Assembly (NCBI RefSeq): GCF_013408145.1
Contig: NZ_JACBZI010000001.1
Span: 62,001 to 126,000, forward strand
Source: Nocardioides marinus
Lineage (GTDB): Bacteria > Actinomycetota > Actinomycetes > Propionibacteriales > Nocardioidaceae
Direction: 5' to 3'
DNA length: 64,000 nt
Part shown: positions 5,567 through 24,634 of the stretch, in pieces
Layout: each line of letters starts with the position of its first letter
Position numbering within the stretch: position 1 is the first letter of the stretch
The notes under the pieces: model-generated
What the model was told of the DNA's origin: nothing
Databases searched by the model: none
What the model saw: only the letters and a program-made list of their open reading frames with translations
Translations under genes and position numbers: made by a program

Positions 5567-5992
5567 GCGGGCGGCTGAATTCGTCGCTGGTTGCGCCCCA
5601 GATGCGGAATCTGCTGGGAGTGTCTTGTCGGGCACGGCGTGGATTCCAGTCCGGACACTTGCGAGCTGGCCGGGCAACGTCCAGTTCGGACACTCCCTGG
5701 CGTGGGCCGTTCCGATCGGGATACTCCGGGATGAGTTCTCCGATGAGGCCGCCGCGACCGAGGCGGCCTGCAACTGGGCGCCGCCGACCATGATGCTGGA
5801 TGGGTCGACCCAGACGGAGTGGCATGAGCAGAGCCGCCGCCCGGTCTCGTGGGAGTAGCGGTGGCCAGGTCTGACGTACAAGCACTTGCACGCTGATCAC
5901 CTGCTCGGTCTGGCCTCGCACTGGGGTAGTTGCCTTTCTCGTACCGCCGCCGGACAGATAACTGATACAGTTTTCTTTCAGGAGGTATGCCG
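5567..5992. other. Gene-free stretch with repeated TCCGGACACT-like motif
   Basis: About 425 bases without a convincing gene. Around 5640-5720 are similar short motifs: AGTCCGGACACT, AGTTCGGACACT and CCGATCGGGATACTCC, spaced some 30-40 bases apart. Such spaced repeats resemble transposase-binding sites in the ends of IS21-like elements, so this may be the scar of a lost insertion sequence. The final 50 bases hold the promoter, operator and ribosome-binding site of the AbiE antitoxin gene. Confidence 0.35.
5960..5972 (+). promoter_or_regulatory. Inverted repeat and ribosome-binding site upstream of the AbiEi-like gene
   Basis: AACTG-ATA-CAGTT is a perfect inverted repeat 21 bases before the antitoxin start, a likely operator for autoregulation, since AbiEi antitoxins repress their own promoters. 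The following AGGAGG at 5980-5985 decides the start: it is too close to the ATG at 5987 but is ideally placed for the ATG at 5993. Confidence 0.5.
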
Positions 5993-6616
5993 ATGTCGGT
6001 CATGGAACGCGTGCGGGAGCGTGTCGTCGCCACCCCCGCTGACGCCTTCATCCACTCGCGTGACCTGGTCGCGGAGCTTGGTGAGCGCACTGCGGTTGAC
6101 GTGGCGCTGCACCGCCTCAAGGAGACCGAGGACCTGGTGCCCGTGCGGCGGGGCCTGTACTACAAGGGCCGCAAGACCCGGTTCGGGACTACGCGGCCTG
6201 AGGCGCTGCGTGTCGGGTACGAGGTGGCGAGGTCGGCGGGGTTCGAGTGCGGGGTGGGGCCGGCGGGGTACTCGGCCGCCCGTGCGCTGGGCCTGACGAC
6301 CCAGGTCCCTCGCCGCGATGAGCTGAGCGTTCCTGGGCGGGCGCCGGCGGATACGCCGGACGTGCACTTCTGTAGCAGGTCGTCGACGGCACGCTCGAAG
6401 CTTCGGCCGCTCGAGGTGGCGGTCTTGGAGCTGCTGCCGGCGTGGCCCCGCTACAGCGAGGAGTCTTGGGGAACGTTCGTCAAGGTTGTCGCGGCCCTGT
6501 CTGCGGAGGGAAAGGTGTCTCTGTCGGAGGTGCGTGACGTGGCCCGTCGGGAGCGGCATGTCGCGGCCAGGAAGCGCGCGGAAAGGCTCTTCGACGAGGT
6601 CGAGACTGTTGGCTGA
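5993..6616 (+). CDS. abiEi: AbiEi-type antitoxin, transcriptional regulator
   Basis: A 207-residue protein with an N-terminal winged-helix (residues 1-60, where short helices precede the VPVRRGLYY strand typical of AbiEi/DUF6088 antitoxins) and a C-terminal domain of the AbiEi type. In type IV toxin-antitoxin systems this protein neutralises the toxin indirectly and represses the operon. It directly precedes and overlaps an AbiEii-type nucleotidyltransferase, which makes the assignment firm as a pair. The start at 5993 is chosen from the strong AGGAGG seven bases upstream. AbiE systems abort phage infection and stabilise mobile elements, which fits the surroundings. Confidence 0.75.
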   Translation: MSVMERVRERVVATPADAFIHSRDLVAELGERTAVDVALHRLKETEDLVPVRRGLYYKGRKTRFGTTRPEALRVGYEVARSAGFECGVGPAGYSAARALGLTTQVPRRDELSVPGRAPADTPDVHFCSRSSTARSKLRPLEVAVLELLPAWPRYSEESWGTFVKVVAALSAEGKVSLSEVRDVARRERHVAARKRAERLFDEVETVG

Positions 6617-7703
6617 ACGACGGCACGGTGCAGCGGTGGGGCAGGCGGAGCAGGACCCTGCCCGTCTGCTCCGCTCTGACCGGGACGGTTTGGATGTTCT
6701 CGCGGCGGACGCGTCTGTGTGGTTCCGTGGCCGAGGCTTGGCGATACCGCAGCTCACAGTGGTCAAGGACTACTGGGTGACCGAGGTTCTGCGGTCGTTG
6801 TCGCAGCCGCTCATCGCGGCGCGCCAGAACGCCCGGGACCCGCGCGTGCATGCCCGCGCCGTGTTCAAGGGCGGGACGAGCTTGAGCAAGGCTCACGGGC
6901 TGCTGCACCGGTTCAGTGAGGACGTCGACGTATACATCGACGCCTACGAGGTCGACGAGGCGGGCAACATCCTGTCGGAGGGTGTCGCTGTCGGGACCAA
7001 CAGGATGAACACCCTGATGAAGATGGCGGCGGAGCGGGTGGCTGGCGCGCTCGATCTGACGTTCACGGAGTTCGAGTACCAGCGGGCCGGTTCCAAGCGC
7101 GGGTACATCTTCGACTACGGCGCGGGTCTGCGTGCGGACCAGGCGTTGAAGGACGGTGTGCAGGTCGAGCTGGTCCGGATGGGGCATCCGACACCGAGCG
7201 CGAGTCAGCAGGTTTCCTCGATGCTGGCGGAGTTTGCTGCGGCGACCGGTCGTTTCGCGCTCGACGACTTCGACGACGCTGCGCCGGTGACCATCGACGT
7301 GCTCTCGCCGGAGCGGACGCTGGTCGACAAGCTCTGCATTCTTCACGACCAGGCCGTGAAGGTCCTCGCCGGCGAGGGCTACGAGCTTCGCCGGCACGCG
7401 CGGCACTACTACGACGTGCACCAGTTGCTGGACGCCCGTTCCATCCGGATGAACCTTCGCGCCAACCCTGGGATGGTCGCCGCGTACGCGGCGGAGGCAG
7501 CCGAGGACTCGGTGCGCAACCGCCGGCCCGGTCAGCCGCGACCCGAGGAGGGGTTCGGGGCGTCGCCGGCGTTCTGCGACGAGGCGGTGCTGGGCCACGC
7601 GCGAGAGGCGTACACGCAGGAGATGGCGGGTCTGGGATACGGCCCGATGCCGGAGTTCGACCGTGTGCTCGAAGTCGTCGAGGCCAGCCGCGCGCTGTTG
7701 TAG
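6609..7703 (+). CDS. abiEii: AbiEii/AbiGii-family nucleotidyltransferase toxin
   Basis: The predicted 364-residue protein carries the family motifs FKGGTSLSK (glycine motif that binds the nucleotide) and FSEDVDVYI (metal-binding acidic residues), with KDYWVTE upstream of them and a later RHARHYYDVHQL segment also typical of the family. AbiEii toxins are nucleotidyltransferases; some modify tRNA and block translation. The start is uncertain: I use a TTG at 6609 that overlaps the antitoxin stop by 8 bases with a GAGG upstream; a GTG at 6636 is the alternative. It forms a coupled operon with the antitoxin. Length is near the family norm, so it looks intact. Confidence 0.85.
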   Translation: MAERRHGAAVGQAEQDPARLLRSDRDGLDVLAADASVWFRGRGLAIPQLTVVKDYWVTEVLRSLSQPLIAARQNARDPRVHARAVFKGGTSLSKAHGLLHRFSEDVDVYIDAYEVDEAGNILSEGVAVGTNRMNTLMKMAAERVAGALDLTFTEFEYQRAGSKRGYIFDYGAGLRADQALKDGVQVELVRMGHPTPSASQQVSSMLAEFAAATGRFALDDFDDAAPVTIDVLSPERTLVDKLCILHDQAVKVLAGEGYELRRHARHYYDVHQLLDARSIRMNLRANPGMVAAYAAEAAEDSVRNRRPGQPRPEEGFGASPAFCDEAVLGHAREAYTQEMAGLGYGPMPEFDRVLEVVEASRALL

Positions 7704-7791: not shown

Positions 7792-8100
7792 GTGCCTCCT
7801 CGTCGTCGTCGTGATGGCTACCGTCCCGAGACGCTGACGCCTGCTTTGAGTGACGCCCTTGACGCCGAAGGTGCACGCCTGGACGGCATCGAGGGCCCGC
7901 TGGAGCGGATCGCGGCCGTCGGTGCCGTGTACGCGGCCCTGGATGACGCCCTGGACGTCATCGCGCTGCCGCGACTGCGTGCCATCGCCGAACTGCGCGC
8001 CCAGGGGTGGTCCTACGACCGGATCGCTGTCGCCACCGAGTTGTCCAAGGGGCGGGTCGCGCAACTAGTCCGCGCGGCCGGGGACCGTCACCTCCTCTGA
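7792..8100 (+). CDS. Small helix-turn-helix protein, 102 aa
   Basis: The C-terminal half (about residues 60-97) reads LRAIAELRAQGWSYDRIA, then TELSKGRVAQLVRAA, a helix-turn-helix like that of sigma-70 region 4 or small actinobacterial regulators found next to plasmid or phage genes. The N-terminal 20 residues are Arg-rich. It starts with GTG at 7792, just downstream of a perfect palindrome. It may regulate itself or the PIN-GNAT gene downstream (8271), from which it is separated by 170 bases. No enzymatic domain is present. Confidence 0.65.
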   Translation: MPPRRRRDGYRPETLTPALSDALDAEGARLDGIEGPLERIAAVGAVYAALDDALDVIALPRLRAIAELRAQGWSYDRIAVATELSKGRVAQLVRAAGDRHLL

Positions 8101-8270: not shown

Positions 8271-9740
8271 ATGGCGAAGGACACCGACGGCCGCCGGCTG
8301 CGGCTGCTCATCGACACCAACATCGTCATCGCGCACGAGGACGAGGACGAGCCGCACACCAACGCGCGGCGCGCCCAACGGCTGGTCCGCGAGGCGCGCG
8401 ACCTCGGCTTCGAGGTGCTCATCAGCCACGGCACCGTTCAAGACGTGCTCCGAGCCGACGAGCCGCGCCGCAGCCGACGACGCAGCTCCCTGAACAAGCA
8501 CTACACCCAGCTGCGCCCCGTCTCGCCGGACCCGGACCTCCGCGAACGCTTCCCGCCCAACCTCGAGGACAACGACAGCTCAGACCTCCAGATCCTGTCG
8601 GTCTTCGCGACCGGTGCCGCCATCGCGCTCGTCACCGAGGACCGCAAGATGCGCAACCGCGCCGCCCAGGCAGGGCTGAAGCGCGTCCTGAACCTCGACG
8701 ACGCCCTCGACTGGCTGGCGGGCCTGCGCGCCCCCGAGCTGCGCAATGCCGCGGGGGTCGAACGGGTCGAGGCCTACCAGATCCCGCTGCGCGCCCCCAT
8801 CTTCGACAGCCTGCGCAACGACTACCCGGACTTCGAGGGCTGGTGGCGCGACAAGGTCGTGGACCAGCGACGCACCGTGCTGGTGCTCGGCGACCACGAC
8901 GCGCCCGAAGGGGTCGCCGTCCTCAAGGACGAGTCCGACGAGAGCGATCTCGCCGACCGGGTCCTGAAGATCTCGACGTTCAAGGTCGCCGAGGGGCTGG
9001 GCCGGGCCAGGCGCGGTGAGCTGCTGCTCCGTGCGGTCGTGGACCACGCCGTCGGCAGCGGCTTCGACGCGGCCTACCTCACGGTCTGGGAGCACCACGG
9101 GGACCTCATCGGATGGCTGGGCCGCTTCGGCTTCTTCCACCACGGCGCCACGGCCGAGGGCGAGCTGGTCCTTGCGAAGCACTTCGTGCCGCCCCCGGGT
9201 GCGGCTGCGTTGGCCCCGCTGCCGCACCACGTCGCCTACGGGCCCAGGTCGCTCCGCGTGGAGCGCGTGTTCTGGGTGCCCATCCAGGACCGGTTCCACT
9301 CCCGCCTCCTCCCCGACAGCGACGAACAGCGGTCACTGATGGGCAACGAGGCCTGCGGCAACGCCATCCGCAAGGCGTATCTGTGCCGCGCGAACACCCG
9401 GCAGCTCCGCCCCGGGGACACCCTCGGCTTCCTGCGGACCGGGGCTGGCACGTCCCGGGTCACCGCTGTCGGCGTCGTCGAGAACACTCTGGCTTCGCGA
9501 GACCCCGCGGAGGTGGCCGCGTTCGTCACGGGACGCACCGTCTACAGCCTTCGCGAGATCCGCAGGATGTGCGAGGTTGGGGAGGTGCTCGCGGTGCTGT
9601 TCCGGTTCGACCGGCGCCTCGAGCCGCCCTGGCTCCTCGACGACCTGAAGCAACGCGGCGCCCTGAATGGCCCGCCACAGTCCATCACCGCCGCGACCGA
9701 GGAGGGAACCACGTGGGTACGCGAGCAGTTGGGCGGGTAG
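8271..9740 (+). CDS. PIN - GNAT - PUA/EVE-like fusion protein
   Basis: The ATG at 8271 follows GGGGGAGGA and gives 489 residues. Residues 8-150 look like a PIN ribonuclease domain (LLIDTNIVIA, with later acidic clusters DNDSSD and VTEDRKM). Residues 205-320 look like a GNAT acetyltransferase (ISTFKVAEGLGRARRGELLL, YLTVWEHHGDLIGWLGRFGF). Residues 330-480 look like a PUA/EVE-type RNA- or modified-base-binding domain (GDTLGFLRT, VTAVGVVE). The last 28 bases overlap the start of an ASCH-domain gene, so the two are surely co-translated. PIN domains cut RNA, GNAT domains acetylate, and PUA-like domains read modified nucleotides; together they suggest a toxin, or defence acting on RNA or tRNA. I know no named system with exactly this architecture. 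Confidence 0.75.
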   Translation: MAKDTDGRRLRLLIDTNIVIAHEDEDEPHTNARRAQRLVREARDLGFEVLISHGTVQDVLRADEPRRSRRRSSLNKHYTQLRPVSPDPDLRERFPPNLEDNDSSDLQILSVFATGAAIALVTEDRKMRNRAAQAGLKRVLNLDDALDWLAGLRAPELRNAAGVERVEAYQIPLRAPIFDSLRNDYPDFEGWWRDKVVDQRRTVLVLGDHDAPEGVAVLKDESDESDLADRVLKISTFKVAEGLGRARRGELLLRAVVDHAVGSGFDAAYLTVWEHHGDLIGWLGRFGFFHHGATAEGELVLAKHFVPPPGAAALAPLPHHVAYGPRSLRVERVFWVPIQDRFHSRLLPDSDEQRSLMGNEACGNAIRKAYLCRANTRQLRPGDTLGFLRTGAGTSRVTAVGVVENTLASRDPAEVAAFVTGRTVYSLREIRRMCEVGEVLAVLFRFDRRLEPPWLLDDLKQRGALNGPPQSITAATEEGTTWVREQLGG

Positions 9741-10165
9741 CGCTGCTGTCCATCCACCCCCGCTACGCCGACGGCATCCTGGCCGGCGCGAAGCGGGTCG
9801 AGTTCCGCAAGCGCCCCCTTGCGGCCGACGTGACCCACGTCGTGGTCTACGCGACCGCCCCGGTCAGCGCAGTCGTCGGTGCGTTCTCCGTCGAGGGGCA
9901 GCACACGCTCACCCCAGCCGAGTTGTGGCAGCGGTTCGCCGACGTCGGTGGCATCGAGGAGGACGCGTTCGCCGCCTACTACGGCAGCCGCGACCTCGGC
10001 ACCGGCATCGCGGTCGGTGAGGTCCTCCGCAGTGCTGCGCCGATGTGCCTGCGCTCCCATCTTGGCATCTCGCACCCGCCGCAGAGCTTCCGCTACCTCG
10101 CCGCCGAGACCGCCCAGGCGGTGCTCCGCCAGATGCGGCCGGCACCCGCGGCCGTGTCTGCCTGA
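9713..10165 (+). CDS. ASCH-domain protein
   Basis: A 150-residue protein starting at GTG 9713 after AGGAGGGAACCAC. The N-terminus reads LLSIHPRYADGILAGAK, followed by a VEFRKR segment, the hallmark of the ASCH superfamily (PUA-like fold; the GxKxxExR motif lines a ligand cleft). ASCH proteins bind RNA or nucleosides and some hydrolyse modified cytidines. It overlaps the PIN-GNAT-PUA gene by 28 bases, so it is either its antitoxin-like partner or a second reader domain of the same complex. It has no membrane segment. The pairing of two PUA-fold proteins in one operon is unusual. Confidence 0.8.
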   Translation: MGTRAVGRVALLSIHPRYADGILAGAKRVEFRKRPLAADVTHVVVYATAPVSAVVGAFSVEGQHTLTPAELWQRFADVGGIEEDAFAAYYGSRDLGTGIAVGEVLRSAAPMCLRSHLGISHPPQSFRYLAAETAQAVLRQMRPAPAAVSA

Positions 10166-10504: not shown

Positions 10505-11408
10505 TTAGGCAGCCTGGACGGCTTTGGTGGTCATGATGGTTTCGTACTCGACGGGGGTCAATCGTCCGAGACCGGGCTGTCGACGGCGTCGGTGGTAGGT
10601 GCGCTCGATCCAGGTCACGATGGCGATCCTCAGGTCCTCGCGTGTGGCCCAGGTCTGACGGTCCAGAACGTTCTTCTGCAGCAGCGCAGAGAAGCTCTCC
10701 ATGGCGGCGTTGTCGCCCGCGGCACCTACTCGGCCCATCGATCCGACCATGGCGTGATGGTTGAGGGCGTGGACGAATTTCCGGCTTCGAAATTGCGATC
10801 CTCTGTCGGTGTGGACGATGCAGCCGGCGACCTCACCGCGCCTGGCGACGGCGTTGTTGAGTGCTGCGACCGCTAGGCGCGACTTCATTCTGGAGTCGAT
10901 GGAGTAGCCCACGATCTTGTTGGAGTAGACGTCCTTGAACGCGCACAGGTAGAGCTTGCCTTCGCGGGTCCAGTGCTCGGTGATGTCGCCGACCCACAGC
11001 TGGTTGGGCTCCTCGGCTGTGAAGGCGTGGCGGGTCACACCGTGCTTGTCGACGACCGCGCACAGGTCGTCGTGGACCGGCGGGCCGGGCCGCCCGGCCT
11101 TGCCCTTCTTGGGTTTGCCGAAGGCGCTCCACCAGCCGTTGGTCGAGCAGATGCGCCAGGCTGTCCGCTCGCACATGGCCTCACCGGCCTCAGCGGCCTC
11201 GTCGATGAGGAACCGGTAGCCGAACTCGGGGTCCTCGCCGTGGGCGTCGAACAGCGCGTTGGCGCGGTAGGCCTCGACCAGCTCGGCGTCGGTGACCGGA
11301 CACGCGAGCCAGCGGTAAATAGGGCTGGCGGGCGATCTTGAGTACCCGGCACGTCACCGTGACGGGGACACCGTCAGCGGCCAGCTCGCGGACGAGCGGG
11401 TACATCAT
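10505..11408 (-). pseudogene. IS3-family transposase orfB, frameshifted
   Basis: The integrase domain is intact in the downstream frame (10505-11176 and beyond): WVGDITEHW with the first Asp, HTDRGSQF with the second, and DNAAMESF with the catalytic Glu. The start of the gene lies in another frame (ATG at 11408, MMYPLVRELAADGVPV). Restoring the reading frame needs removal of one A from the AAA at 11317-11319, so that the sequence reads RQPYYRWLA rather than RQPYLPLA. This single-base insertion destroys the product. The start overlaps the orfA stop by 4 bases (ATGA). A sequencing error in the short homopolymer is the alternative explanation. Confidence 0.8.
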
Positions 11409-11698
11409 TTTCCCGGCAGGTTCGCCTGGGAGAGGTAGGCAGCAGCACGGCGCAGGACCTCGTTCTCCTGCTCCAGCAACCGGATCCGCTTCTTCGCTTC
11501 ACGCAGCTCGGTGTTCTCAGCCGCGGTGGTCCCGGGCTTGATGCCGTCCTCGACGTCGGCGGTCTTGAGCCAGTTGGTCAGGCAGGACTCGCTGATGCCG
11601 AAGTCGGCAGCGATCTGCTTGAGGTAGACACCCGGCTCGCGGTTCCTCGCCACGCGCACGACGTCGTCGCGGAACTCCTTGGGGTAGGGCTTGGGCAC
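11405..11698 (-). CDS. IS3-family transposase orfA
   Basis: A 97-residue DNA-binding protein: PKPYPKEFRDDVVRVAR, then an ISESCLTNWL helix-turn-helix (about residues 30-45) and a C-terminal leucine-zipper helix (NTELREAKKRIRLLEQ) that mediates multimerisation with OrfB. It binds the terminal repeats of the element. I start it at GTG 11698 because GGAAGG is spaced nine bases upstream; an ATG at 11707 is possible. It is intact, whereas orfB is broken, so alone it would only act as a binding protein or repressor. Confidence 0.85.
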   Translation of the reverse strand: MPKPYPKEFRDDVVRVARNREPGVYLKQIAADFGISESCLTNWLKTADVEDGIKPGTTAAENTELREAKKRIRLLEQENEVLRRAAAYLSQANLPGK

Positions 11699-11742
11699 AG
11701 CGCACATCCTTCCAGCGGCACCTCTCGGCACCACAGATCAGA

Positions 11743-11767
11743 TGTCACCTATCCGTGCAGCAGTCCC
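11743..11767 (-). repeat. IS3 terminal inverted repeat, orfA side
   Basis: Reverse complement begins GGGACTGCTGCACG and ends AGGTGACA, pairing with 10473-10497. Confidence 0.8.
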
Positions 11768-11895
11768 GTGCGTGGGGGCCGCCGCAGTTGGTTGCGCTCG
11801 CACGGCGGGTGGTGAACGACGTGACGATCACCGCGGCGCACGAGGCCGACTTGCACCGCTACATCGATGCCTACGACCGGGGCGGTGGGCGGTGA
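11768..11895 (+). pseudogene. C-terminal gene fragment cut by the IS3 element
   Basis: Directly after the IS end an open frame reads PPQLVALARRVVND, then HEADLHRYIDAYDRGGGR and stops at 11893-11895. It looks like the genuine tail of a helical protein, but has no start. It may be the 3' part of a gene whose 5' part lies left of 10473. The family is not recognised. Confidence 0.4.
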
Positions 11896-16012: not shown

Positions 16013-16411
16013 TCAGGCGTCGTCGGGCAGTTCGCCGGCGAGTTCCCCGCGGTCCAGGACCGCCTGCGTGGGGATGGTGGCGCGCAGAATGCCCACGAGA
16101 CGCCACGACGGCCACGACGTCCCCGACCGGAGCGCCGAGAGCCGGTTCACGCTCACGCCCACGTGCGAGGCGTACGCCTTCTGAGTGCGCCCCTTCACCT
16201 GCAGGTACTTCTCGTAGTCCAGCACCAGCTGGCGCAGGTCCCGGACCGCCCGCATGTGCGCAACACCTTGCGTGCGGGTCAGCCCGTAGCGGCGGAACGC
16301 CTCTTCGGGGACCACGAGGCGACCGTGCGGCCACCGACCCTCGACGAAGTCGGCCGGAGTGAGGTCATCGAACGGCGACCGGCGAACCGGACCCCGCTTC
16401 TCCTCCGCCAC
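16013..16411 (-). CDS. XRE-like helix-turn-helix protein
   Basis: A 132-residue protein starting with GTG at 16411. Residues 60-110 include LVLDYEKYLQVKGRTQKAYA, then SHVGVSVNRLSALRSG and SWPSWRLVGIL, an XRE-type helix-turn-helix arrangement. It reads away from the transposition module (divergent from 16555, with 143 bases between). It may regulate the transposase operon, as divergent regulators often do in transposons. A short inverted repeat at 16494-16514 lies in the shared upstream region. Confidence 0.6.
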   Translation of the reverse strand: MAEEKRGPVRRSPFDDLTPADFVEGRWPHGRLVVPEEAFRRYGLTRTQGVAHMRAVRDLRQLVLDYEKYLQVKGRTQKAYASHVGVSVNRLSALRSGTSWPSWRLVGILRATIPTQAVLDRGELAGELPDDA

Positions 16412-16554: not shown

Positions 16555-17547
16555 GTGTCCACCCAACCCACGAACCGCGGCGTCACCATGACCGGGCTCC
16601 GTCGGCCAACCGCCGCGAACCACACCGCACCCGCGAGCACCGCGCGAGTCAGCAGGCAGCAGCGTCCCGCACCCCGGCCGATGGCCGGCACCGTCGTGAT
16701 CGCGCCTAACCGGCGCCAGCGCATCGCCCGACCGCTCAACGTCGCCCCCACCCGCACCAACCTCGCCGCCATCCTCGCCGGCGAGGCCCTCGCCCATGAC
16801 CTCCACGCTGCCGGGTTCCCCGCCGACCTCGCGGGCCAGAACGCCATGCTCGTCGAACTGTGCGACCCGCTGGTACTCGCCCGAGCCGCCGAGCTCGACC
16901 GGCGCGGCGTTTCGTTCCTCGAAGCTGCCGCCCGGTTTCTCGTCACCCACCACCGGCACGCTTGGATGCGCTTCCTTCCCCGCGGCGACATCCTCAGCCT
17001 CTGGCGCGACCACACCGCAACCACGCGAGCCATCTCCGAGACCAGCGGCCACGCAGGAACCGCCGACCTCGACGAGGTCGACCAGGCCGCGAGCCTGCCC
17101 GCCCTGGCACGACGCCGGCGGGTTCTGTGGATGCACCCCGACGGCCCCGCCGCAGGACTGCTGGTGGACCGCATCCACCACACGCCCCGCAGCGGCCTCA
17201 TCGAGGTCGACACATGGATGCGACGCAAGGTCGCCGAAGACCTCCACCGCGTCACCAACCTCCTGGTCGCCCTCGGCGGCACCGCACCGGGCGCTCCCAG
17301 CGGCAGCGGCGAAGACGCCGCCGAGCACGGCATCCTGGGCGTTCGGGTCTTCACCCACCGCGCCCCCAACGCCGGAGTCCACTTCACCGCCACCCTCAAC
17401 CCGGCCGGGCAGGCCGTCGTCGCAGACCACCACCGCATCGGCGGCTGCCACAACTGCCTCAGCACCAGCCACACCACCACCAGCCAGACGCAACCGGCAG
17501 CACCCGAGGACGTGCGCGCTGCCGTGCGAGCGGAGGTGGCGCCGTGA
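16555..17547 (+). CDS. First gene of the transposition operon, unknown
   Basis: 330 residues from GTG 16555; ATG at 16588 is also possible. The N-terminal 65 residues are Arg/Thr/Pro-rich and probably disordered. The core (about 70-240) is helical, with SFLEAAARFLVTHHRH and a WMRFLPRGDIL segment, and the C-terminus has a possible zinc-binding cluster (HHRIGGCHNC). I find no similarity to TnsA or to any named family. It overlaps the transposase start by 4 bases (GTGA), so it is part of the transposition operon. It may be a transposition cofactor or a substitute for TnsA; that is inference from position. Confidence 0.6.
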   Translation: MSTQPTNRGVTMTGLRRPTAANHTAPASTARVSRQQRPAPRPMAGTVVIAPNRRQRIARPLNVAPTRTNLAAILAGEALAHDLHAAGFPADLAGQNAMLVELCDPLVLARAAELDRRGVSFLEAAARFLVTHHRHAWMRFLPRGDILSLWRDHTATTRAISETSGHAGTADLDEVDQAASLPALARRRRVLWMHPDGPAAGLLVDRIHHTPRSGLIEVDTWMRRKVAEDLHRVTNLLVALGGTAPGAPSGSGEDAAEHGILGVRVFTHRAPNAGVHFTATLNPAGQAVVADHHRIGGCHNCLSTSHTTTSQTQPAAPEDVRAAVRAEVAP

Positions 17548-19406
17548 GCACCGCCCAGGTCCACAACCTCGACCTCGCACGCCAGGGCCGCGACAGCGTC
17601 GCCCGCCGCAGCAACGGCTACCGGCTCGGCGACCACGGCAAGCGCACCAGCGCACTGACCCGCGAAGCCGCCATCAACCAACTCCGCGAGGTCGCCAAAC
17701 TCCACGGGAACGTCACCCGGGCAGACAAGGAGCGCGCCGCCGAGCGGGCCGACGTCACGGTCCGCACCATCAATAACTGGTGGTCCAAGGCGTGCCTCGA
17801 AGAGGTTGCCCACCTCCGAGACGACAACGAGATGCCAGGCATGAGCCACCTCGTGATGCCGGCCTACCTCTACCGGTTCGCCGAGCCCGACAAGCTGCAG
17901 CTCACCCAGGACGAAATCGCGTTCTTCGGTCAGGCCAAGCCGCTGCGGAACGCGATCGCGGCAGTGCGCGCCGACCCGACCAACCGGCTCAGCCACTACT
18001 CCGAGTCCACCCTGTACGCCGCCTGGGGCAACGTGACCGCATCAGTGCGGGCCGGGGCCCGCGACGGTGCCGCCGCGCAGCGCGCACTCGAGGCCACCTG
18101 GCCCCTGACCGGCCGCGACCGCATCAACGAGACCTGGTCCATCGACGAGTACGACCTCAAGGTCCGCAGCCGCGACGAGCGCGGCGCACCCATCGAACCC
18201 AAGCTGCTCTGCATCCGAGACCGCGCCTCCGGCCTCCCGCTCGCCTACACCGTCCTCAAGCACGGTGCCCGCGGCGCCGACACCGGCGTTCTCCTTGCCG
18301 CCGCCGCCCTCGGGTTCACCACAACCCACCCTGACGACCCCAACGGCGCCCTGGAAGTCTCCGGGGTCGCACGACTCCTGGTCTCCGACCAGGGAGGCGC
18401 CCTCCTCGGCGACGAAGCGCGTGCCGCCGCCCGCCGTCTCGGCATCGGCAACAGCCCCATCGCCTCCCACACGCCCCAGTCCAACGGCGACCACGAGCAG
18501 ATGCACCAGTCCCTCCTCGCGCACTTCGCGAACGGACCCGGGTCCCGACGTGGATGGCCCGACATCGCCGGCCAGCGAGCCGACCACGGCGACCTGCCCT
18601 TCGACACCGTCGTCGAGGAAATCGGGAACTGGTTCGCCACCTACATCACGCGACCGTTCCAGGGCGGGCCCCACAAGGGCCGCAGCCGCCTGGGCGTCTA
18701 CGCAGACCTCACCGCCGCCGGCGACGTCTACGACGGCCCCACCCTCACCGAGGAAGACGAGGGCTCCGTCGGGTACTGGGTCGGCGAGCGCACCTACGAC
18801 GCCACCCGCGGACTCCACTACGACAACCAGTACTGGCTCTCCTCCGCGCTCGCCGACGCCGCCAACCCCGGCGAACGCATCACGCTCCGCCAACTCCTCG
18901 ACCCCGGCACCCTGTACGCCTACGACAGCAAGGGCCGCTTCATCGGAACCGTCGCGCCACGCGCCGAAGCCATCCCCGCCGAAGTCGAGACCACCCACGC
19001 CCACCGGGCCCGCCGACACACGTTCGTGCAGAACCACATCGCCAAGCCCAAGGCCGCCTCCGCACGCGCCGACGCTCAAGATGCCTGGGACGCCGTCGCA
19101 GACGGTCTCGTCGACGCAGCCGACCACGCCTCCCTCTACGGCCCTCCCCACGACACCAGCGAAGACGAGCACAGCGTTGCTCCCATCCCCGACCTCCACT
19201 TCGTTGCGCCCAGCGCCGCCGCCCAGGCCCCCGACCAGCAGGCGTCGCACCGCCCGCGTCCGCAGCGCACCTCACTGCGCTCCCGCAAGGTCCCGCCGCC
19301 CACCGAGGACCAGCTGCCCGACACCGACAGCCTCGACGCGATCGCAAACCTCTACGGCACCACCCGTTCCGACGACGTCGAAGAGCCGGAGCGAACCGAT
19401 GGGTGA
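17544..19406 (+). CDS. MuA/TnsB/TniA-type DDE transposase
   Basis: 620 residues from GTG 17544, preceded by GGAGGTGG. Residues 40-82 hold a helix-turn-helix (REVAKLHG ... RTINNWW). The RNase H-like catalytic core spans about 190-330: D201 in WSIDEYDLK, D282 in LLVSDQGG, E318 in SNGDHEQMH, giving D-D-35-E. After it, GVYADLT and a segment LHYDNQYWLSS ... YAYDSKGRFIG (about 400-470) resemble the Mu-type transposase C-terminal beta barrel (PF09299). The tail is Ser/Pro-rich. It should cut the element's ends and join them to target DNA, driven by the downstream ATPase. All catalytic residues are present, so it looks active. Confidence 0.85.
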   Translation: MSTAQVHNLDLARQGRDSVARRSNGYRLGDHGKRTSALTREAAINQLREVAKLHGNVTRADKERAAERADVTVRTINNWWSKACLEEVAHLRDDNEMPGMSHLVMPAYLYRFAEPDKLQLTQDEIAFFGQAKPLRNAIAAVRADPTNRLSHYSESTLYAAWGNVTASVRAGARDGAAAQRALEATWPLTGRDRINETWSIDEYDLKVRSRDERGAPIEPKLLCIRDRASGLPLAYTVLKHGARGADTGVLLAAAALGFTTTHPDDPNGALEVSGVARLLVSDQGGALLGDEARAAARRLGIGNSPIASHTPQSNGDHEQMHQSLLAHFANGPGSRRGWPDIAGQRADHGDLPFDTVVEEIGNWFATYITRPFQGGPHKGRSRLGVYADLTAAGDVYDGPTLTEEDEGSVGYWVGERTYDATRGLHYDNQYWLSSALADAANPGERITLRQLLDPGTLYAYDSKGRFIGTVAPRAEAIPAEVETTHAHRARRHTFVQNHIAKPKAASARADAQDAWDAVADGLVDAADHASLYGPPHDTSEDEHSVAPIPDLHFVAPSAAAQAPDQQASHRPRPQRTSLRSRKVPPPTEDQLPDTDSLDAIANLYGTTRSDDVEEPERTDG

Positions 19407-20229
19407 CGCCCCGCCCCGAACGGCTGCGGCGTGGGACGTGCAGCACGCAGCCGCGCGGGTGCCCTACGACGTGCAGCGAACCTTCACCGAGCACTCTGCG
19501 CTCGTCCTGACGCCGCAGATGCGCATGCTTGCCGCCGGGATGCCGTCCGCGCTGGCACGTGGTGCTGCCACCGCCGTGTCCGGGCCCGCCGGATGTGGAA
19601 AGACCACGATGCTCAAGGCCGTCGCCGCAGTGGCCGACCCGGCCGTGAACACCGCGTTCGCCGACATCACCCGCGGCTCCACCGACCGGCAGGTGTGGGA
19701 GGAGATCGCGACCGCAGTCCTCGGCGTCACCGTCGAGGGAACCGCCCGCGACATGCGGCACGCCACCCTCGAGCACCTCGTCACGCACCCAACCCTGCTC
19801 ATCGTCGATGAAGCCCAGTTCATCGGACGGGCCGGGCTACTCCAGCTCCGCTGGCTCTGGGCGCACCCCTTCCCAAACGGGTTCGCCATCGTGCTCGCCG
19901 GATCCGACCTGTTCAGCCACCTCGACGCCGACGAGTCCATCGCCAGCCGCATCAACCGACGCATCGCCCTCGACCACCACACCGCCGCCACGATGGTCAC
20001 CCACATCCAGAACCACCACCGCCTCGCCGCCATCACCGACCGGGACCTCCTGGTCCGCATCAACGAGCAGTACGCACAGGGGTCCTGGAGGAAGTGGTCG
20101 AACTTCCTCGCCGAACTGCGCGACCAACAGCACCGAGGTCCCATCACCGAGCAGGCAGCGCAGCAGGCGCTCACGTCCATCACCGGCCGATACATCGACC
20201 TCGCAGAGCGTCAGCCCTCCCGGCGATGA
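19399..20229 (+). CDS. TnsC/TniB/MuB-like AAA+ ATPase, transposition regulator
   Basis: 276 residues from ATG 19399, overlapping the transposase stop by 8 bases. Walker A is SGPAGCGKTT (residues 61-70) and Walker B is LLIVDEAQ (133-140); a sensor-like segment IVLAGSDLF follows and SRINRRIALDHH resembles the arginine-finger region. This matches AAA+ proteins of transposition (TnsC, TniB, MuB), which form filaments on target DNA, block insertion near an existing copy, and activate the transposase. The order transposase-ATPase is as in Tn7, Tn5053 and Mu. Confidence 0.85.
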   Translation: MGDAPPRTAAAWDVQHAAARVPYDVQRTFTEHSALVLTPQMRMLAAGMPSALARGAATAVSGPAGCGKTTMLKAVAAVADPAVNTAFADITRGSTDRQVWEEIATAVLGVTVEGTARDMRHATLEHLVTHPTLLIVDEAQFIGRAGLLQLRWLWAHPFPNGFAIVLAGSDLFSHLDADESIASRINRRIALDHHTAATMVTHIQNHHRLAAITDRDLLVRINEQYAQGSWRKWSNFLAELRDQQHRGPITEQAAQQALTSITGRYIDLAERQPSRR

Positions 20230-21239
20230 ACCCGTTCGACCCCTTTGCAGGCGAAGGGCCGGCCTTCCCAGGACCAGTAGCGGCCCCCATCTCCGCGCAC
20301 CGCTTCGACCAGGCCCTGCGCACCCTGCGGCCAGCCGCGGCACGACACGACGACACCGCTTGGCTACGTCCACGCCCGATGCCGGTCACCGAGAACCTCG
20401 CAACCTTCAGCCAAGACCTCCTCGACGCGATCGGGGCCGTCGGGCTCGCACCCCCGCGAGCCGTTGGCGAGCGCCACCTCCTCCGGTCGCTGGTTCACCT
20501 CGTCCACGGCCCAGTACGGCACCTCATCGTCGAACACGCCGAACTCGTCGGGACCGACACGCTCGCCGAACTCCACCAGACCGCGCTCCTCGGGTCCGTG
20601 CAGCTCTGGCTCCTCATCGACCCCGCCGGCTCCCTTGGCGGGCCGTCGCTCCGCGGAGAAGCCGACCAAGCGGTCCGCCACTGGGTCCGCGACACCTGCA
20701 CGACCCGTCACGCCGACGCCGTCATCAACGACTGGACCGGACGCCCCGTCAAGACAGGACTCTGCGCGGCACCGCGTCTGCCCTGGTGGACATCAACCCT
20801 GGGCGACACCTGGCCGCCGAAGCCGTGCCGGCAACACCAGACCATTGCGGACTGCGTCGTGTCCTGGGGTCGGCGAGCCGCCATCACCGGAGACACCTTC
20901 GCATCAGTGCACCGGGCGCGCCTGGCCGAGTTCGCGCGCCACCCCGCGACCACCGTCGTTGACCGGTGGCGGCTCACCGCTGCTGGACGGGACCTCTACA
21001 CCCCCGGGATGGACGCCCTCGCGGCGCTCCACCCCGCAGCGAGCGCGGCGCTGCTGTCCGACGTGGCCCCTGACGGCTCGACCGTCGCCGTCGAAGGCAC
21101 CCCGCTGGTGGTAGCCGACCATCTGCGCGCCCCCTTGGCTCGGCTGCGGTCCAGTCGCCGGCTCGCCGGGTGCCACCCACACGAACCCATGCGCGGCCTC
21201 TTCGACCAAACCCAGGAACGCCGGCCCCGCCGGCGCTGA
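20226..21239 (+). CDS. Last gene of the transposition operon, unknown (TniQ/TnsD position)
   Basis: 337 residues from ATG 20226, overlapping the ATPase stop by 4 bases (ATGA). It is in the position where Tn7-like elements carry the target selector (TniQ/TnsD), but I see no TniQ signature. The central region has Cys and His residues that might bind zinc (CTTRHADAV, GLCAAP, PCRQHQ, DCVVSWG, about residues 158-220). The N-terminus is proline-rich. It is the last gene before the end repeats. A target-selection role is inferred from gene order. Confidence 0.6.
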   Translation: MNPFDPFAGEGPAFPGPVAAPISAHRFDQALRTLRPAAARHDDTAWLRPRPMPVTENLATFSQDLLDAIGAVGLAPPRAVGERHLLRSLVHLVHGPVRHLIVEHAELVGTDTLAELHQTALLGSVQLWLLIDPAGSLGGPSLRGEADQAVRHWVRDTCTTRHADAVINDWTGRPVKTGLCAAPRLPWWTSTLGDTWPPKPCRQHQTIADCVVSWGRRAAITGDTFASVHRARLAEFARHPATTVVDRWRLTAAGRDLYTPGMDALAALHPAASAALLSDVAPDGSTVAVEGTPLVVADHLRAPLARLRSSRRLAGCHPHEPMRGLFDQTQERRPRRR

Positions 21240-21311
21240 CGCCGCCACCGCTAGGCCCGGAGCTCATCGAGTTCCGGGCCTTCTTGTCGAGCCCGCACGG
21301 TCTGAGGCGCA

Positions 21312-21468
21312 GGAGTTTCCCCTCTGGAACCGACGAGTTTCTCCGCTGGAACGAGGAGTTTCCCGTCTGGAAGCACGAGCTTCTTCCGTGGAGGAAGCTC
21401 GGCCCAGCTCGGAGTTTCTCGGCCGGAACGCCCCTGGGGATCTTGGGAAACTCCCGCCGGAATCCGCA
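21312..21468 (+). repeat. Right transposon end with five transposase-site-like repeats
   Basis: Direct copies of a 19-bp motif close to GGAGTTTCCCGTCTGGAAC start at 21312, 21334, 21355, 21376 and 21411, so spaced 22, 21, 21 and 35 bases. The copy at 21376 is the most degenerate. An inverted half-site, GGGAAACTCCC, follows at 21444-21454. After it comes a CA at 21467-21468, then the tadA frame. Repeats of this length and spacing are what TnsB or TniA sites look like at the ends of Tn7-like transposons. Confidence 0.65.
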
Positions 21469-21826
21469 GGAGGTCCGCGGGGCCGAGGTGGTCGAGCTGC
21501 TCGCCGCGCTCAACACCGGTCACGAGGGCGGCTGCGGCACCCTGCACGCCAACGCCGCCGCCGACGTCCCCGCCCGGGTGGAGGCCCTCGCCCTTGCCGC
21601 CGGGCTCGACCGGGCGGCCGCCCACAGCCAGCTCGCCGCCGGCGTGGAAGCCGTGCTCCACCTGCGCCGCCACCGCGACGGCACGCGCCGGGTCGCCGAG
21701 CTGGCCGTGCCCTCCCGCGACCGCGACGGCACCGTCCGGATGCTCAGCGCGGTCCGGGTCGAGCACGGTGCCCTGGTCCCCGGGCCCGGGGAGGACCAGT
21801 TGGCCGACGTCCTGGCGCGGGCGTGA
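21469..21826 (+). pseudogene. tadA: tadA/cpaF pilus ATPase, 3' fragment
   Basis: The frame from 21469 reads EVRGAEVVELLAALNTGHEG, then GGCGTLHANAAADVPARVEA, the highly conserved C-terminal part of TadA/CpaF (VirB11-like secretion ATPases: the GEVRGAE Walker B region and the GHEGG-TLHAN segment). The remaining 118 residues are in frame to the normal stop, which overlaps tadB. The Walker A region and N-terminal domains are missing, and the sequence before 21469 is transposon end. Transposition into tadA has therefore most likely inactivated the pilus motor; the 5' part should lie at the element's left end. Confidence 0.85.
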
Positions 21827-22662
21827 GCGCCCCGGTGCTGGCTGGACCCGTGCTGGCAGGGTCGGTGCTCGCTGGACCGGTGCTGGCTGGACCGGTGCCG
21901 GCCGACCCGGTGCTCTCCGCGCTGCTGGCGGGGGCGGCCGCTGCGCTGCTCGTGCCGGGTCGGGTGACGCCCCGCGCCGGCCGGTCGCCGGGTGCGGCGG
22001 TGCTGCTCGCAGGCGCGACGGGAGTGGTCCTGCTCCTCGGGCCCCCGGCCCGCGTGCTCGTCGCGGCCGCGCTCCTCGGGCTGCTGGCGGCCAGTGCCGC
22101 CTGGATCCTGCGGGCCCGACGACAGGCGTCCGCGGCCCGGGCCACCGCCGCCCGCGTGCGCGAGAGCTGCGAGTCCCTCGCCGAGGAGCTCACCGCCGGC
22201 GCCGGCCCCGACCGGGCGCTGGCGCGTGCCGCCCGGGACTGGCCGTCCCTGGGGCCCGTGCTCGCCGCGCACCGGGTCGGGCTCGACGTCCCCACGGCCT
22301 GGCGTCGTGTCGCCGAGGCCCCCGGCGCTGGCGGGCTGCGGCTCGTCGCCGCCGCCTGGCAGGTCTCCGGCCGCACGGGCCAGGGGTTGGCGGCGGCGCT
22401 CTCCCGGGTGGCCGAGGACCTGCGGGCCGGAGAGGCCAGCCGCCGGGTGGTCGCCTCCGAGCTCGCGTCGGCGCGCGCGACCGGTCGGCTCGTGGCCGGC
22501 CTGCCGATGCTGGCCTGGCTGATGGGATCCGGCTCGGGCGGTGACCCGCTCGCCTGGCTCCTGGGCGGTCCTGCCGGCTGGGCCTGCCTCGCGCTCGGTG
22601 GCGGGCTGCTGCTCGGCGGGCTGGCCTGGATCGAGCTGCTCGCCCGGTCGGTGGAGCGATGA
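21823..22662 (+). CDS. tadB: TadB-like pilus assembly membrane protein
   Basis: 279 residues from GTG 21823, coupled to tadA by a GTGA overlap. The N-terminus contains a run of PVLAG pentapeptides. Hydrophobic segments occur around residues 30-75 and again near the C-terminus (AWLMGSG, then CLALGGGLLLGGLAWIELL). The region CESLAEELTAGAGPDRALARA, then VAEDLRAGEASRRVVASE, is the type II secretion system F domain of TadB. With TadC it forms the inner-membrane platform of the Flp/tad pilus. It looks intact, but its operon's ATPase is broken. Confidence 0.85.
   Translation: MSAPVLAGPVLAGSVLAGPVLAGPVPADPVLSALLAGAAAALLVPGRVTPRAGRSPGAAVLLAGATGVVLLLGPPARVLVAAALLGLLAASAAWILRARRQASAARATAARVRESCESLAEELTAGAGPDRALARAARDWPSLGPVLAAHRVGLDVPTAWRRVAEAPGAGGLRLVAAAWQVSGRTGQGLAAALSRVAEDLRAGEASRRVVASELASARATGRLVAGLPMLAWLMGSGSGGDPLAWLLGGPAGWACLALGGGLLLGGLAWIELLARSVER
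21832..21906 (+). repeat. 15-bp minisatellite in tadB
   Basis: About five imperfect copies of CCGGTGCTGGCTGGA encode PVLAG repeats at the start of TadB. The copies keep the frame. Confidence 0.7.
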
Positions 22663-23369
22663 CCGCGCTGGCCGCCGTGGCCACCGCGCTCGCGGTGCTG
22701 CTCGCCCACCGGCCGCACCGGCCCCCGGTCACGGTGCGGCACCGGCCGCGGCCGCCCACCGACGTACGACGGCAGCGGGGGGTGGCCGCTGTCCTGGCCG
22801 TCGTCGCGGGGCTGACCTGGGGTCGCGACCTGCTGGGGCCGCTGCTCGGCCCCGTCGTCGGGCTGGTCGCGGGCGCGGCCGTGTGGACCGCCGCCGGCAG
22901 GGGCGAGTCCAGCGTCGAGCGACGGGCGGCCGCACAGGCTCGCACCGACCTGCCCCACCTGGTGGGTCTGGCCGCCGACGCGGTCCGCGCGGGCAGCGAC
23001 CCCACCCGGGCGCTGCGGCACGCGGCCGACGCGCTGCCCGGCCCGACCGCCGACCGACTGCTCGGCCGTACCCACGCCCTGGCCCTCGGGGCCGACCCCG
23101 CGGCCGTGTGGCGCGAGCTGGCCCACGACCCGGCGCTCGCACCTCTCGGCCGGGCCCTGGCCCGCGCCCACGAGAGCGGGACGCCGGTGGCCGACGCGGT
23201 CGCGCGCCTGGCGGTGCGGTCGGCGGAGCAGGCCCGTGCGGAGGTGGAGGACCGGGCCCGTCGCGTGGGGGTCCGCGCCGCGGTCCCGCTCGGGCTGTGC
23301 CTGCTGCCGTCCTTCGTCGTGCTCGGCATCGTCCCGCTGGCCGCCGCCCTCCTGGCCGACCTCTGGTGA
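22659..23369 (+). CDS. tadC: TadC-like pilus assembly membrane protein
   Basis: 236 residues from ATG 22659, overlapping tadB by 4 bases. Two N-terminal hydrophobic segments (residues 4-15 and 40-75), a T2SSF-type cytoplasmic domain (LPHLVGLAADAVRAGSDPTR, then ALARAHESGTPVADAVARLA), and a C-terminal pair of membrane helices (PLGLCLLPSFVVLGIVPLAA). It partners TadB in the pilus platform. It is followed by three palindromic repeats, then the DUF4244 pilin gene; the operon may continue through them. Confidence 0.85.
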   Translation: MTALAAVATALAVLLAHRPHRPPVTVRHRPRPPTDVRRQRGVAAVLAVVAGLTWGRDLLGPLLGPVVGLVAGAAVWTAAGRGESSVERRAAAQARTDLPHLVGLAADAVRAGSDPTRALRHAADALPGPTADRLLGRTHALALGADPAAVWRELAHDPALAPLGRALARAHESGTPVADAVARLAVRSAEQARAEVEDRARRVGVRAAVPLGLCLLPSFVVLGIVPLAAALLADLW

Positions 23370-23380
23370 CCATCCCCCCC

Positions 23381-23497
23381 GTCGAGCCGGCGCATCCTTA
23401 CGCCGGTTCGGCCCGCCGGTCCCGTCGAGCCGGCGCATCGTTACGCCGGTTCGATCTGTCGGTTCCGTCGAGCCGGCGCATCGTTACGCCGGTTCGA
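23381..23497. repeat. Three copies of a REP-like palindromic repeat
   Basis: Three copies of GTCGAGCCGGCGCATCGTTA followed by CGCCGGTTCGA start at 23381, 23424 and 23467 (43-base period). Each can form a hairpin with several G-U pairs. Two related, almost perfect palindromes lie at 27394-27465. This is a small dispersed repeat family, not a CRISPR: the units are palindromic and the spacers are short and similar. Confidence 0.8.
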
Positions 23498-23643
23498 CGC
23501 CGCCCGGGCCCGGCAGCCGTCCACATGCGGGGTCCGATCGGGCCCCTCCCCAGCCCGGCCCACGGCGCCCCCACGCAGGCCCTCCGGCGACCAGCCTGGG
23601 TGCCCTCGGGCCGCATCGGGTGGCCCCGGACCCAGGAGGCACC

Positions 23644-23847
23644 ATGCCCCGTCCCCACGTCCTCACGACCCGTGGTCGTCCGCGGCACCGCGCCCAGGAC
23701 GGCATCACCACCGCGGAGTACGCCGTCGGCACGGCCGCCGGCGCCGGGCTGGCCGGTCTGCTCTACACGATGCTCACCGGTGGCTTCGGCGACCAGCTGC
23801 TGACGACCCTCTTCGACCACGTGCTCGGCCTGCTGGGCGTCGGATGA
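23644..23847 (+). CDS. DUF4244 Flp-pilin-like protein
   Basis: 67 residues with a positively charged leader, then DGITTAEYAVGTAAGAGLAG and a hydrophobic stretch (LAGLLYTMLTGGF). The G/TAEYA motif resembles the prepilin cleavage and Glu5 region of Flp pilins (DUF4244 in actinobacteria). It is probably the major pilin of the tad pilus. The start is ATG 23644, after the palindromic repeats; the last bases overlap the next gene by 4 (ATGA). Confidence 0.8.
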   Translation: MPRPHVLTTRGRPRHRAQDGITTAEYAVGTAAGAGLAGLLYTMLTGGFGDQLLTTLFDHVLGLLGVG

Positions 23848-24239
23848 GCCGGGCCGGTCGTGGCGATCGGGGAGCGGTGACCGCGGAGCTGGCCATGGTG
23901 CTGCCGCTGCTCCTCGCCGTCACGGCCGGGCTGGTGTGGCTGTTGGTCGTGGGGCTCGGTCAGCTCCGGGCCACCGACGCCGCGCGCGAGGCGGCGCGCG
24001 CCCTGGCCCGCGGGGAGGACGCCGCGGTCGCGACCGATCTCGCGCTCACGATCGGGCCACCGGGCAGCACGGTCGCGGTGAGCGACCGCGACGGGCTGGT
24101 CGTCGTCACCGTCAAGGCCACGATCGAGGGGCCGGGCGGCGCGCTGGCCGTGCTCCCCGGGGCGGAGGTCAGCGGCGAGGCGACGGCCGCGCGCGAGCCG
24201 GCCGCCGGGGGGCCGGCGCCGAGCGGGTCCGTCCCGTGA
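23844..24239 (+). CDS. TadE-family pseudopilin
   Basis: 131 residues: short charged N-terminus, then GAVTAELAMVLPLLLAVTAG and a single membrane helix to about residue 35, the TadE signature (AE near the start of the helix). The outer domain is short and Val-rich. It is coupled to the pilin gene and to the following TadE-like gene by 4-base overlaps. Minor pseudopilins of this type are processed by the prepilin peptidase and help assemble the pilus. Confidence 0.8.
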   Translation: MSRAGRGDRGAVTAELAMVLPLLLAVTAGLVWLLVVGLGQLRATDAAREAARALARGEDAAVATDLALTIGPPGSTVAVSDRDGLVVVTVKATIEGPGGALAVLPGAEVSGEATAAREPAAGGPAPSGSVP

Positions 24240-24634
24240 GGCGGCGTACCGACCGGGGTGCCGACCGGGGTGCCGACCGTGGTGCCGACCGGGGCGCCGC
24301 CACCACGGCCGCGGTCGCCTGCCTCGGGCTGCTGCTGGTGGTGGGTCTGGCACTCGGGGAGGTGGGGGCGTGGTTCGCGGCGCACCGGCAGGCGCGGGCG
24401 GCGGCCGACCTCGCCGCACTGGCCGGGGCCGGCGCCCTGACCGGGGCCCCGGCGGGCGCGGCGGGCCTCGACCCGTGCGTGGCGGCCGCCGAGGTGGCCC
24501 GGCGCAACGGTGCGGAGGTCACGTCGTGCCGCGCCGTCGGCAGCGCGGTCGAGGTGGTCGTCTCGGTGGACGCACCGAGCCGGTGGGGCCCTGAGGCCGC
24601 GCTCACCGGCACCGCTCGGGCCGGTCTTGCGTGA
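24236..24634 (+). CDS. Rv3654c-like TadE-family protein
   Basis: 132 residues from GTG 24236. After an N-terminus of ADRG repeats encoded by a 12-bp minisatellite (24245-24292) comes a hydrophobic helix AAVACLGLLLVVGLALGEVG, then HRQARAAADLAALAGAGAL and a small domain with two Cys residues (DPCVAA, VTSCRA). This is the layout of Rv3654c-type proteins at the end of actinobacterial tad clusters. It closes the pilus operon; the next gene is convergent. Confidence 0.75.
   Translation: MRRRTDRGADRGADRGADRGAATTAAVACLGLLLVVGLALGEVGAWFAAHRQARAAADLAALAGAGALTGAPAGAAGLDPCVAAAEVARRNGAEVTSCRAVGSAVEVVVSVDAPSRWGPEAALTGTARAGLA
24245..24292 (+). repeat. 12-bp minisatellite in the last tad gene
   Basis: Four copies of a unit like GGTGCCGACCGG encode the ADRG repeats just before the membrane helix. 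Confidence 0.7.

Follow-up and report, generated by a model that had tools for sequence, protein, structure and literature searches.

The window analysed here, 64,000 nucleotides long (C1:62001-126000 of the complete 4,110,100-bp genome of Nocardioides marinus, hereafter G000), opens inside an element of 30,577 bp (C1:52892-83468) that lies between the two halves of a tadA gene. The first 9,109 bp of this element (C1:52892-62000) are situated to the left of the window. Coordinates given without the C1 prefix are window positions. The element and its right junction comprise the following features:

1-21468, no strand: right-hand 21,468 bp of the element, of which both ends, the target-site duplication and the interrupted gene were located
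10505-11773 (approximate), minus strand: insertion sequence of the IS3 family, nested inside the element
21311-21428, no strand: four 19-nt direct repeats of the AGGAGTTTCCCgTCTGGAA type, starting at 21311, 21333, 21354 and 21410
21445-21468, minus strand: right terminal inverted repeat TGCGGATTCCGGCGGGAGTTTCCC, 24 bp, matching the left end
21469-21473, plus strand: target-site duplication GGAGG, 5 bp, with its other copy at C1:52887-52891
21470-21826, plus strand: tadA 3' fragment, 118 codons and stop (TIGR03819 positions 261-339, T2SSE)
21880-24634, plus strand: intact downstream tad genes for TadB, TadC, a DUF4244 pilin (QDG/ITTAEY), TadE (Rv3655c type) and Tad, from profile matches

The tadA 3' fragment (EVRGAEVV...LARA) opens with GAG GTC CGC at 21470 and ends with a TGA stop at 21824-21826. 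A preliminary description had read this frame as the last 118 residues of TadA, placed just behind a transposon end and in front of intact tad genes, and each of these points agrees with our data, the frame running from 21470 (21469 is the first base of GGAGG) and the transposon end being recognised by its 24-bp terminal inverted repeat and its four 19-nt repeats. The 5' part of the gene and the short target duplication, which were to be looked for on the other side, are also present. Indeed, the T2SSE profile, run against the whole genome, placed the 5' part outside the window, on the same strand at C1:52093-52891 (266 codons). The two halves correspond to one contiguous TIGR03819/T2SSE protein: on TIGR03819 (TadA family ATPase; model length 340) the 5' piece covers positions 1-261 and the 3' piece positions 261-339, the pieces meeting at position 261, and on Pfam T2SSE they cover about 3-221 (match C1:52255-52896) and about 219-280. 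When the flanks are joined and one GGAGG is dropped, the frame is restored (VVGEVRGAEVV) and an ordinary TadA of 383 aa is obtained.

The termini of the element, TGCGGATTCC.../...GGAATCCGCA, form TG...CA inverted ends. At the left junction the tadA 5' piece ends in ...CGTCGGGGAGG and is followed by the left element end TGCGGATTCCAGCGGGAGTTTCCC at C1:52892; at the right junction the element ends in ...GGGAAACTCCCGCCGGAATCCGCA and is followed by the tadA 3' piece, GGAGGTCCGCGGGG. Compared by eye, the left and right terminal inverted repeats are identical at 23 of 24 positions. The left end also holds four 16-nt repeats that match the 19-nt repeats of the right end, the latter being probable transposase-binding sites. 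The GC content of the element is 68.7%, against 73-75% in the flanks.

Four adjacent genes, named A to D, adjoin the right end and constitute the putative transposition module, to which two further genes may be added:

7846-8100, plus strand: 84-aa HTH-like protein with 66-70% identity to its counterparts in the elements of G215 and G842 (see below)
16013-16411, minus strand: HTH protein of 132 aa, encoded divergently from A and found in 5/5 related elements
16681-17547, plus strand: A, 288 aa, possible TnsA counterpart (model weakly like PD-(D/E)XK nucleases of Cas4/AddAB type)
17544-19406, plus strand: B, DDE transposase of 620 aa with D201-D282-E318 (DD35E), from its catalytic residues and phrog_310
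19399-20229, plus strand: C, TnsC/MuB-type AAA+ regulator in which both Walker motifs, A and B, are intact (AAA_22, phrog_296)
20226-21239, plus strand: D, 337 aa, TnsC/MuB-like AAA+ fold lacking a P-loop (AF2 model and VIA-align)

In protein B, residues D201, D282 and E318 are invariant in four homologs, the last two being 35 residues apart. B matches the phage transposase family phrog_310 (2.5e-22) and its D-35-E stretch aligns weakly with retroviral integrase; a Pfam search gave no match, rve included. Protein C matches AAA_22 at 6.9e-14 and phrog_296 (DNA transposition protein) at 1.3e-13. Protein D matches no Pfam or NCBIfam family, and in an AlphaFold model built from four sequences (pLDDT 67) its residues 13-165 superpose on TnsC/MuB AAA+ domains, which rank first for the N-terminal fold (Z 10.1, rmsd 2.7 and 121 residues against ShTnsC with VIA-align); its C-terminal half is poorly modelled. 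TniQ and TnsF are absent from the listed structural neighbours of this moderate model, and Pfam and NCBIfam found no TniQ/TnsD, TnsF or TnsE among the element proteins scanned. We infer that D is the best candidate, at the level of a guess, for the target selector. Protein A is possibly a nuclease and a counterpart of TnsA, as the top neighbours of its model (pLDDT 72) are PD-(D/E)XK nucleases, with weak scores (Z at most 8.3, rmsd 6.1, 153 residues, 4-7% identity with VIA-align); Foldseek gave no significant match and a sequence search gave none, and A is not recognisable as TnsA by sequence. Finally, the 84-aa HTH-like protein may belong to the element's own functions because it is conserved in three elements with otherwise different cargo, and a 167-aa gene at the left end is common to the same three elements (G000, G215 and G842).

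Clear homologs of the A-B-C-D module were found in five genomes: G000, Nocardioides sp. Root122 (G045), G215 from another genus of the family, G842 from another family of the class, and G134. Any match to B, several of them weak, occurred in 4 of 197 genomes of the genus, 5 of 295 of the family and 9 of 392 of the order, and a class-level draw of 395 genomes contained B in one genome besides G000. In four of the five carriers the element lies at the identical base of tadA, in one orientation and between 5-bp duplications: GGAGG around the 30,577-bp element of G000, CGAGG in G045 (element divided between two contigs, L013 and L022), GGAGG around 26,392 bp in G215 and CGAGG around 25,375 bp in G842. 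The internal end repeats tabulated for G000 are visible in the other three as well. It is the Walker-B codons that are interrupted, at GTN GGN GAG G^TN CGN GG (VGE|VRG). A tadA ortholog is near-universal in the 197 Nocardioides genomes and almost all matches listed cross the site uninterrupted; among the roughly 150 best tadA matches listed, only that of G000 stops at the insertion point. These relatives provide the uninterrupted comparison that had been called for, and G301 offers an empty site with an intact tadA frame of 394 aa. We are highly confident that a DDE transposon of Tn7/Mu type inserts site-specifically in tadA of a conserved actinobacterial tad locus.

In the mechanism that we propose, transposase B, aided by the AAA+ protein C, would link the TG...CA ends to target DNA at positions staggered by 5 bp, presumably in a cut-and-paste mode. 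Insertion would always occur in the Walker-B codons (VGE|VRG), and always so oriented that A-B-C-D lies next to the tadA 3' end. The address would probably be read by an element protein, the P-loop-less, TnsC-like D being the best candidate, and the element would destroy the TadA of the locus while importing anti-phage defence genes.

Tn7 inserts in a site- and orientation-specific manner with a 5-bp duplication, and its TG...CA ends carry repeated internal binding sites. The tadA element resembles Tn7 (TnsABC and TnsD, attTn7 at glmS) in all these respects, as well as in the location of a transposition module of four genes beside the right end: it has a TnsB-type DDE transposase, an adjacent TnsC-type AAA+ protein, the 5-bp duplication and the TG...CA ends, and a single attachment site with fixed orientation in four of the five carriers. 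It differs from Tn7, which lands beyond its target gene and leaves it unbroken, in that it cuts the gene, in that TnsD/TniQ was not found and in that the sequence of A is not recognisable as TnsA. A likeness to MuA/MuB of Mu is seen in the matches of B to phrog_310 and of C to phrog_296 and in the resemblance of the D model to MuB as well as TnsC; the insertion of Mu is near-random, however, whereas that of the tadA element is site-specific, and no phage structural genes were noticed among the genes examined.

The element works like a Tn7-type transposon that homes on tadA, comparable to Tn6022 with comM, whose Walker-B region is recognised by TnsF (PMC10293859). Tn6022/AbaR and the tadA element both combine a DDE transposase with an AAA+ regulator in a large defence- or resistance-bearing element of one orientation, and both insert within an ATPase gene at the Walker-B coding region (PMC10293859). 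Both interrupted genes have a link to transformation, which in the case of tadA is drawn by analogy with Micrococcus luteus only. They differ in their target, tadA (an ATPase of the T2SSE family) versus comM, and the comM insertion through TnsF that characterises the Tn6022 subgroup was not found in the present element. Other differences are that none of TniQ, TnsF and TnsE was detected among the scanned proteins, that the transposase is too diverged for Pfam, that a fourth, P-loop-less TnsC-like protein is present and that the host is an actinobacterium. None of the element proteins covered by Pfam scans showed a tyrosine-recombinase domain, the domain type from which TnsF derives.

Neither half of tadA is expected to work as an ATPase, because in the 5' piece, which retains the P-loop, the frame leaves TadA directly after ...VVGEVR and continues into element-encoded residues, and the 3' piece has no P-loop. 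The TadA of the interrupted locus is thus predicted to be dead and the pilus function of the locus to be lost; polarity on the downstream tad genes may be added to this. The proposed silencing of the pilus motor holds for the interrupted locus and does not extend to every Tad pilus. Since two more tad loci (C1:2292-2302 kb and C1:2711-2716 kb) encode complete TadA/CpaF ATPases of their own, with 40-44% identity to the broken TadA, Tad pili may still be produced by the cell.

Why this address is used can be explained in two ways. We consider it probable that the Walker-B codons only offer a convenient, conserved address and that the gene is dispensable, its loss being neutral or slightly costly and buffered by the other tad loci; the conservation of the site among orthologs and the two other complete tad loci of the same genome fit this. 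Other conserved dispensable sites exist, however, and the convergence of two transposon types on an ATPase connected with DNA uptake appears suggestive. The second explanation, selfish protection, is that loss of a Tad competence pilus prevents the curing of the element by natural transformation, an idea already put forward for elements that target comM. In M. luteus, deletion of every gene of the tad cluster except tadB abolished transformation, and both tad loci were needed (PMC4322843). These mutants make a loss of natural transformation no less plausible a consequence than the effects on adhesion and phage sensitivity suggested previously. The interrupted locus possesses a Flp-type pilin with a G/XXXXEY site, and Tn6022 offers the precedent of a TnsF-mediated strike on the Walker-B region of comM (PMC10293859); inactivation of comM lowers transformation and may hinder the removal of mobile elements (PMC11472951), and by the title of a further paper the curing of AbaR raised transformability (PMC7508600). 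By analogy with the comM elements we hypothesise a similar loss of transformation here. The two other tad loci may nevertheless carry transformation, and a conserved coding motif would be a dependable address even without any gain from the loss of the pilus, so that we regard protection of the element as rather unlikely to be the reason for its choice. We hold as doubtful the broader conjecture of a TniQ-less branch of Mu/Tn7 elements with a P-loop-less TnsC-like selector, convergent with Tn6022, that breaks a DNA-uptake ATPase at its Walker-B codons and blocks its own removal by transformation.

The history of the four insertions can be read from the identities. The transposase of G000 is 47-59% identical to those of the other tadA-inserted elements, and the cargo is almost wholly different among related elements. 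A single ancient insertion, inherited vertically while element and host diverged, would account for the strong divergence of both the host tadA genes and the transposases. We judge it very improbable: the closest transposase is in another genus (59% to G215) and not in the same genus (about 47% to G045), whereas tadA shows the reverse (60% and 67%), the identities of B, C and D being out of step with host relatedness; the duplications match each host's own codons, the cargo differs, and interrupted tadA is rare in the 197 Nocardioides genomes among the matches listed. An insertion by accident, as the preliminary description presented it and exactly as G000 alone would look with its one interrupted gene and target duplication, is hardly credible at all when three independent homologous elements occupy the identical nucleotide in the same orientation, three further hits at one base having a calculated chance of about 1e-10 even within tadA alone. 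Repeated site-specific insertion is the only explanation that fits the same base and orientation, the empty sites, and identities and cargo that depart from host relatedness.

With this site-specific insertion, a conserved pilus/competence ATPase gene joins the attachment sites of Tn7-type elements, used by a transposase beyond the reach of Pfam and with no recognised selector, in parallel with Tn6022/TnsF, which targets comM at its Walker-B region. A search of the openly accessible journal literature yielded no account of Tn7-like elements in tadA/cpaF or, with TnsB, in Nocardioides; the elements thus look like one transposon family whose fixed target, a pilus ATPase gene, is apparently undescribed. 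Whether transposons choose competence genes as homes against their own removal becomes a testable question, a compact site-specific insertion module of actinobacterial origin is on offer, and a split tadA can serve as a marker of strains whose Tad locus has been broken by a defence island.

The fifth A-B-C-D module, in G134 (L019/L020, G134:C8:3640000-3679999), lies outside tadA; its B is about 47-51% identical, this genome has only more distant TadA paralogs, and a search for repeats beside the D gene did not reveal the right end of the element. Either targeting is not fixed throughout the family or the target of G134 has been lost.

Two degenerate remnants of T2SSE ATPases, about 4.3 kb apart and one of them with internal stops, occur at G134:C8:2935254-2940387. 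The best tadA matches of four other genomes (G154, G168, G170 and G183) score 1e-85 to 1e-99, compared with about 1e-110 to 1e-145 for intact orthologs; these are the scores expected of a split gene and may represent further insertions with other transposases.

The cargo of the element includes predicted defence-like, anti-phage genes:

C1:55612-57828 (L010:9613-11829), left of the window: ThiF/E1-E2-like protein, 631 aa
738-1871, minus strand: DUF4041/T5orf172 protein, PADLOC PD-Lambda-1, by homology
2162-3436, minus strand: protein similar to the PADLOC mREase_IV model, by homology
5987-7703, plus strand: AbiEi-AbiEii pair, with homologs also in the G842 element
8271-10165, plus strand: PDC-M11A (PIN/GNAT-like) and an ASCH-like protein, by homology

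Annotation by homology similarly assigns a type III restriction-modification pair to the G215 element, and AbiE together with a PD-T4-6-like kinase to the G842 element. The cargo of these three elements fits a survey of Tn7-like transposons according to whose title defence systems make up a large share of their cargo (PMC8649781). A 102-aa acidic protein adjoins the ThiF/E1-E2-like protein, and the two possibly form a conjugation module, ubiquitin-like or of CBASS type. In the G842 element the AbiEi/AbiEii genes (L060:11152-12827) are located between D and the right end, and in G000 to the left of A-B-C-D; the right flank of the module can take up cargo as well. Finally, no relative of transposase B was found in the viral contigs searched or in the plasmid search, where only the nested IS3 matched, through similar copies (80-90% identity) on Rhodococcus plasmids.
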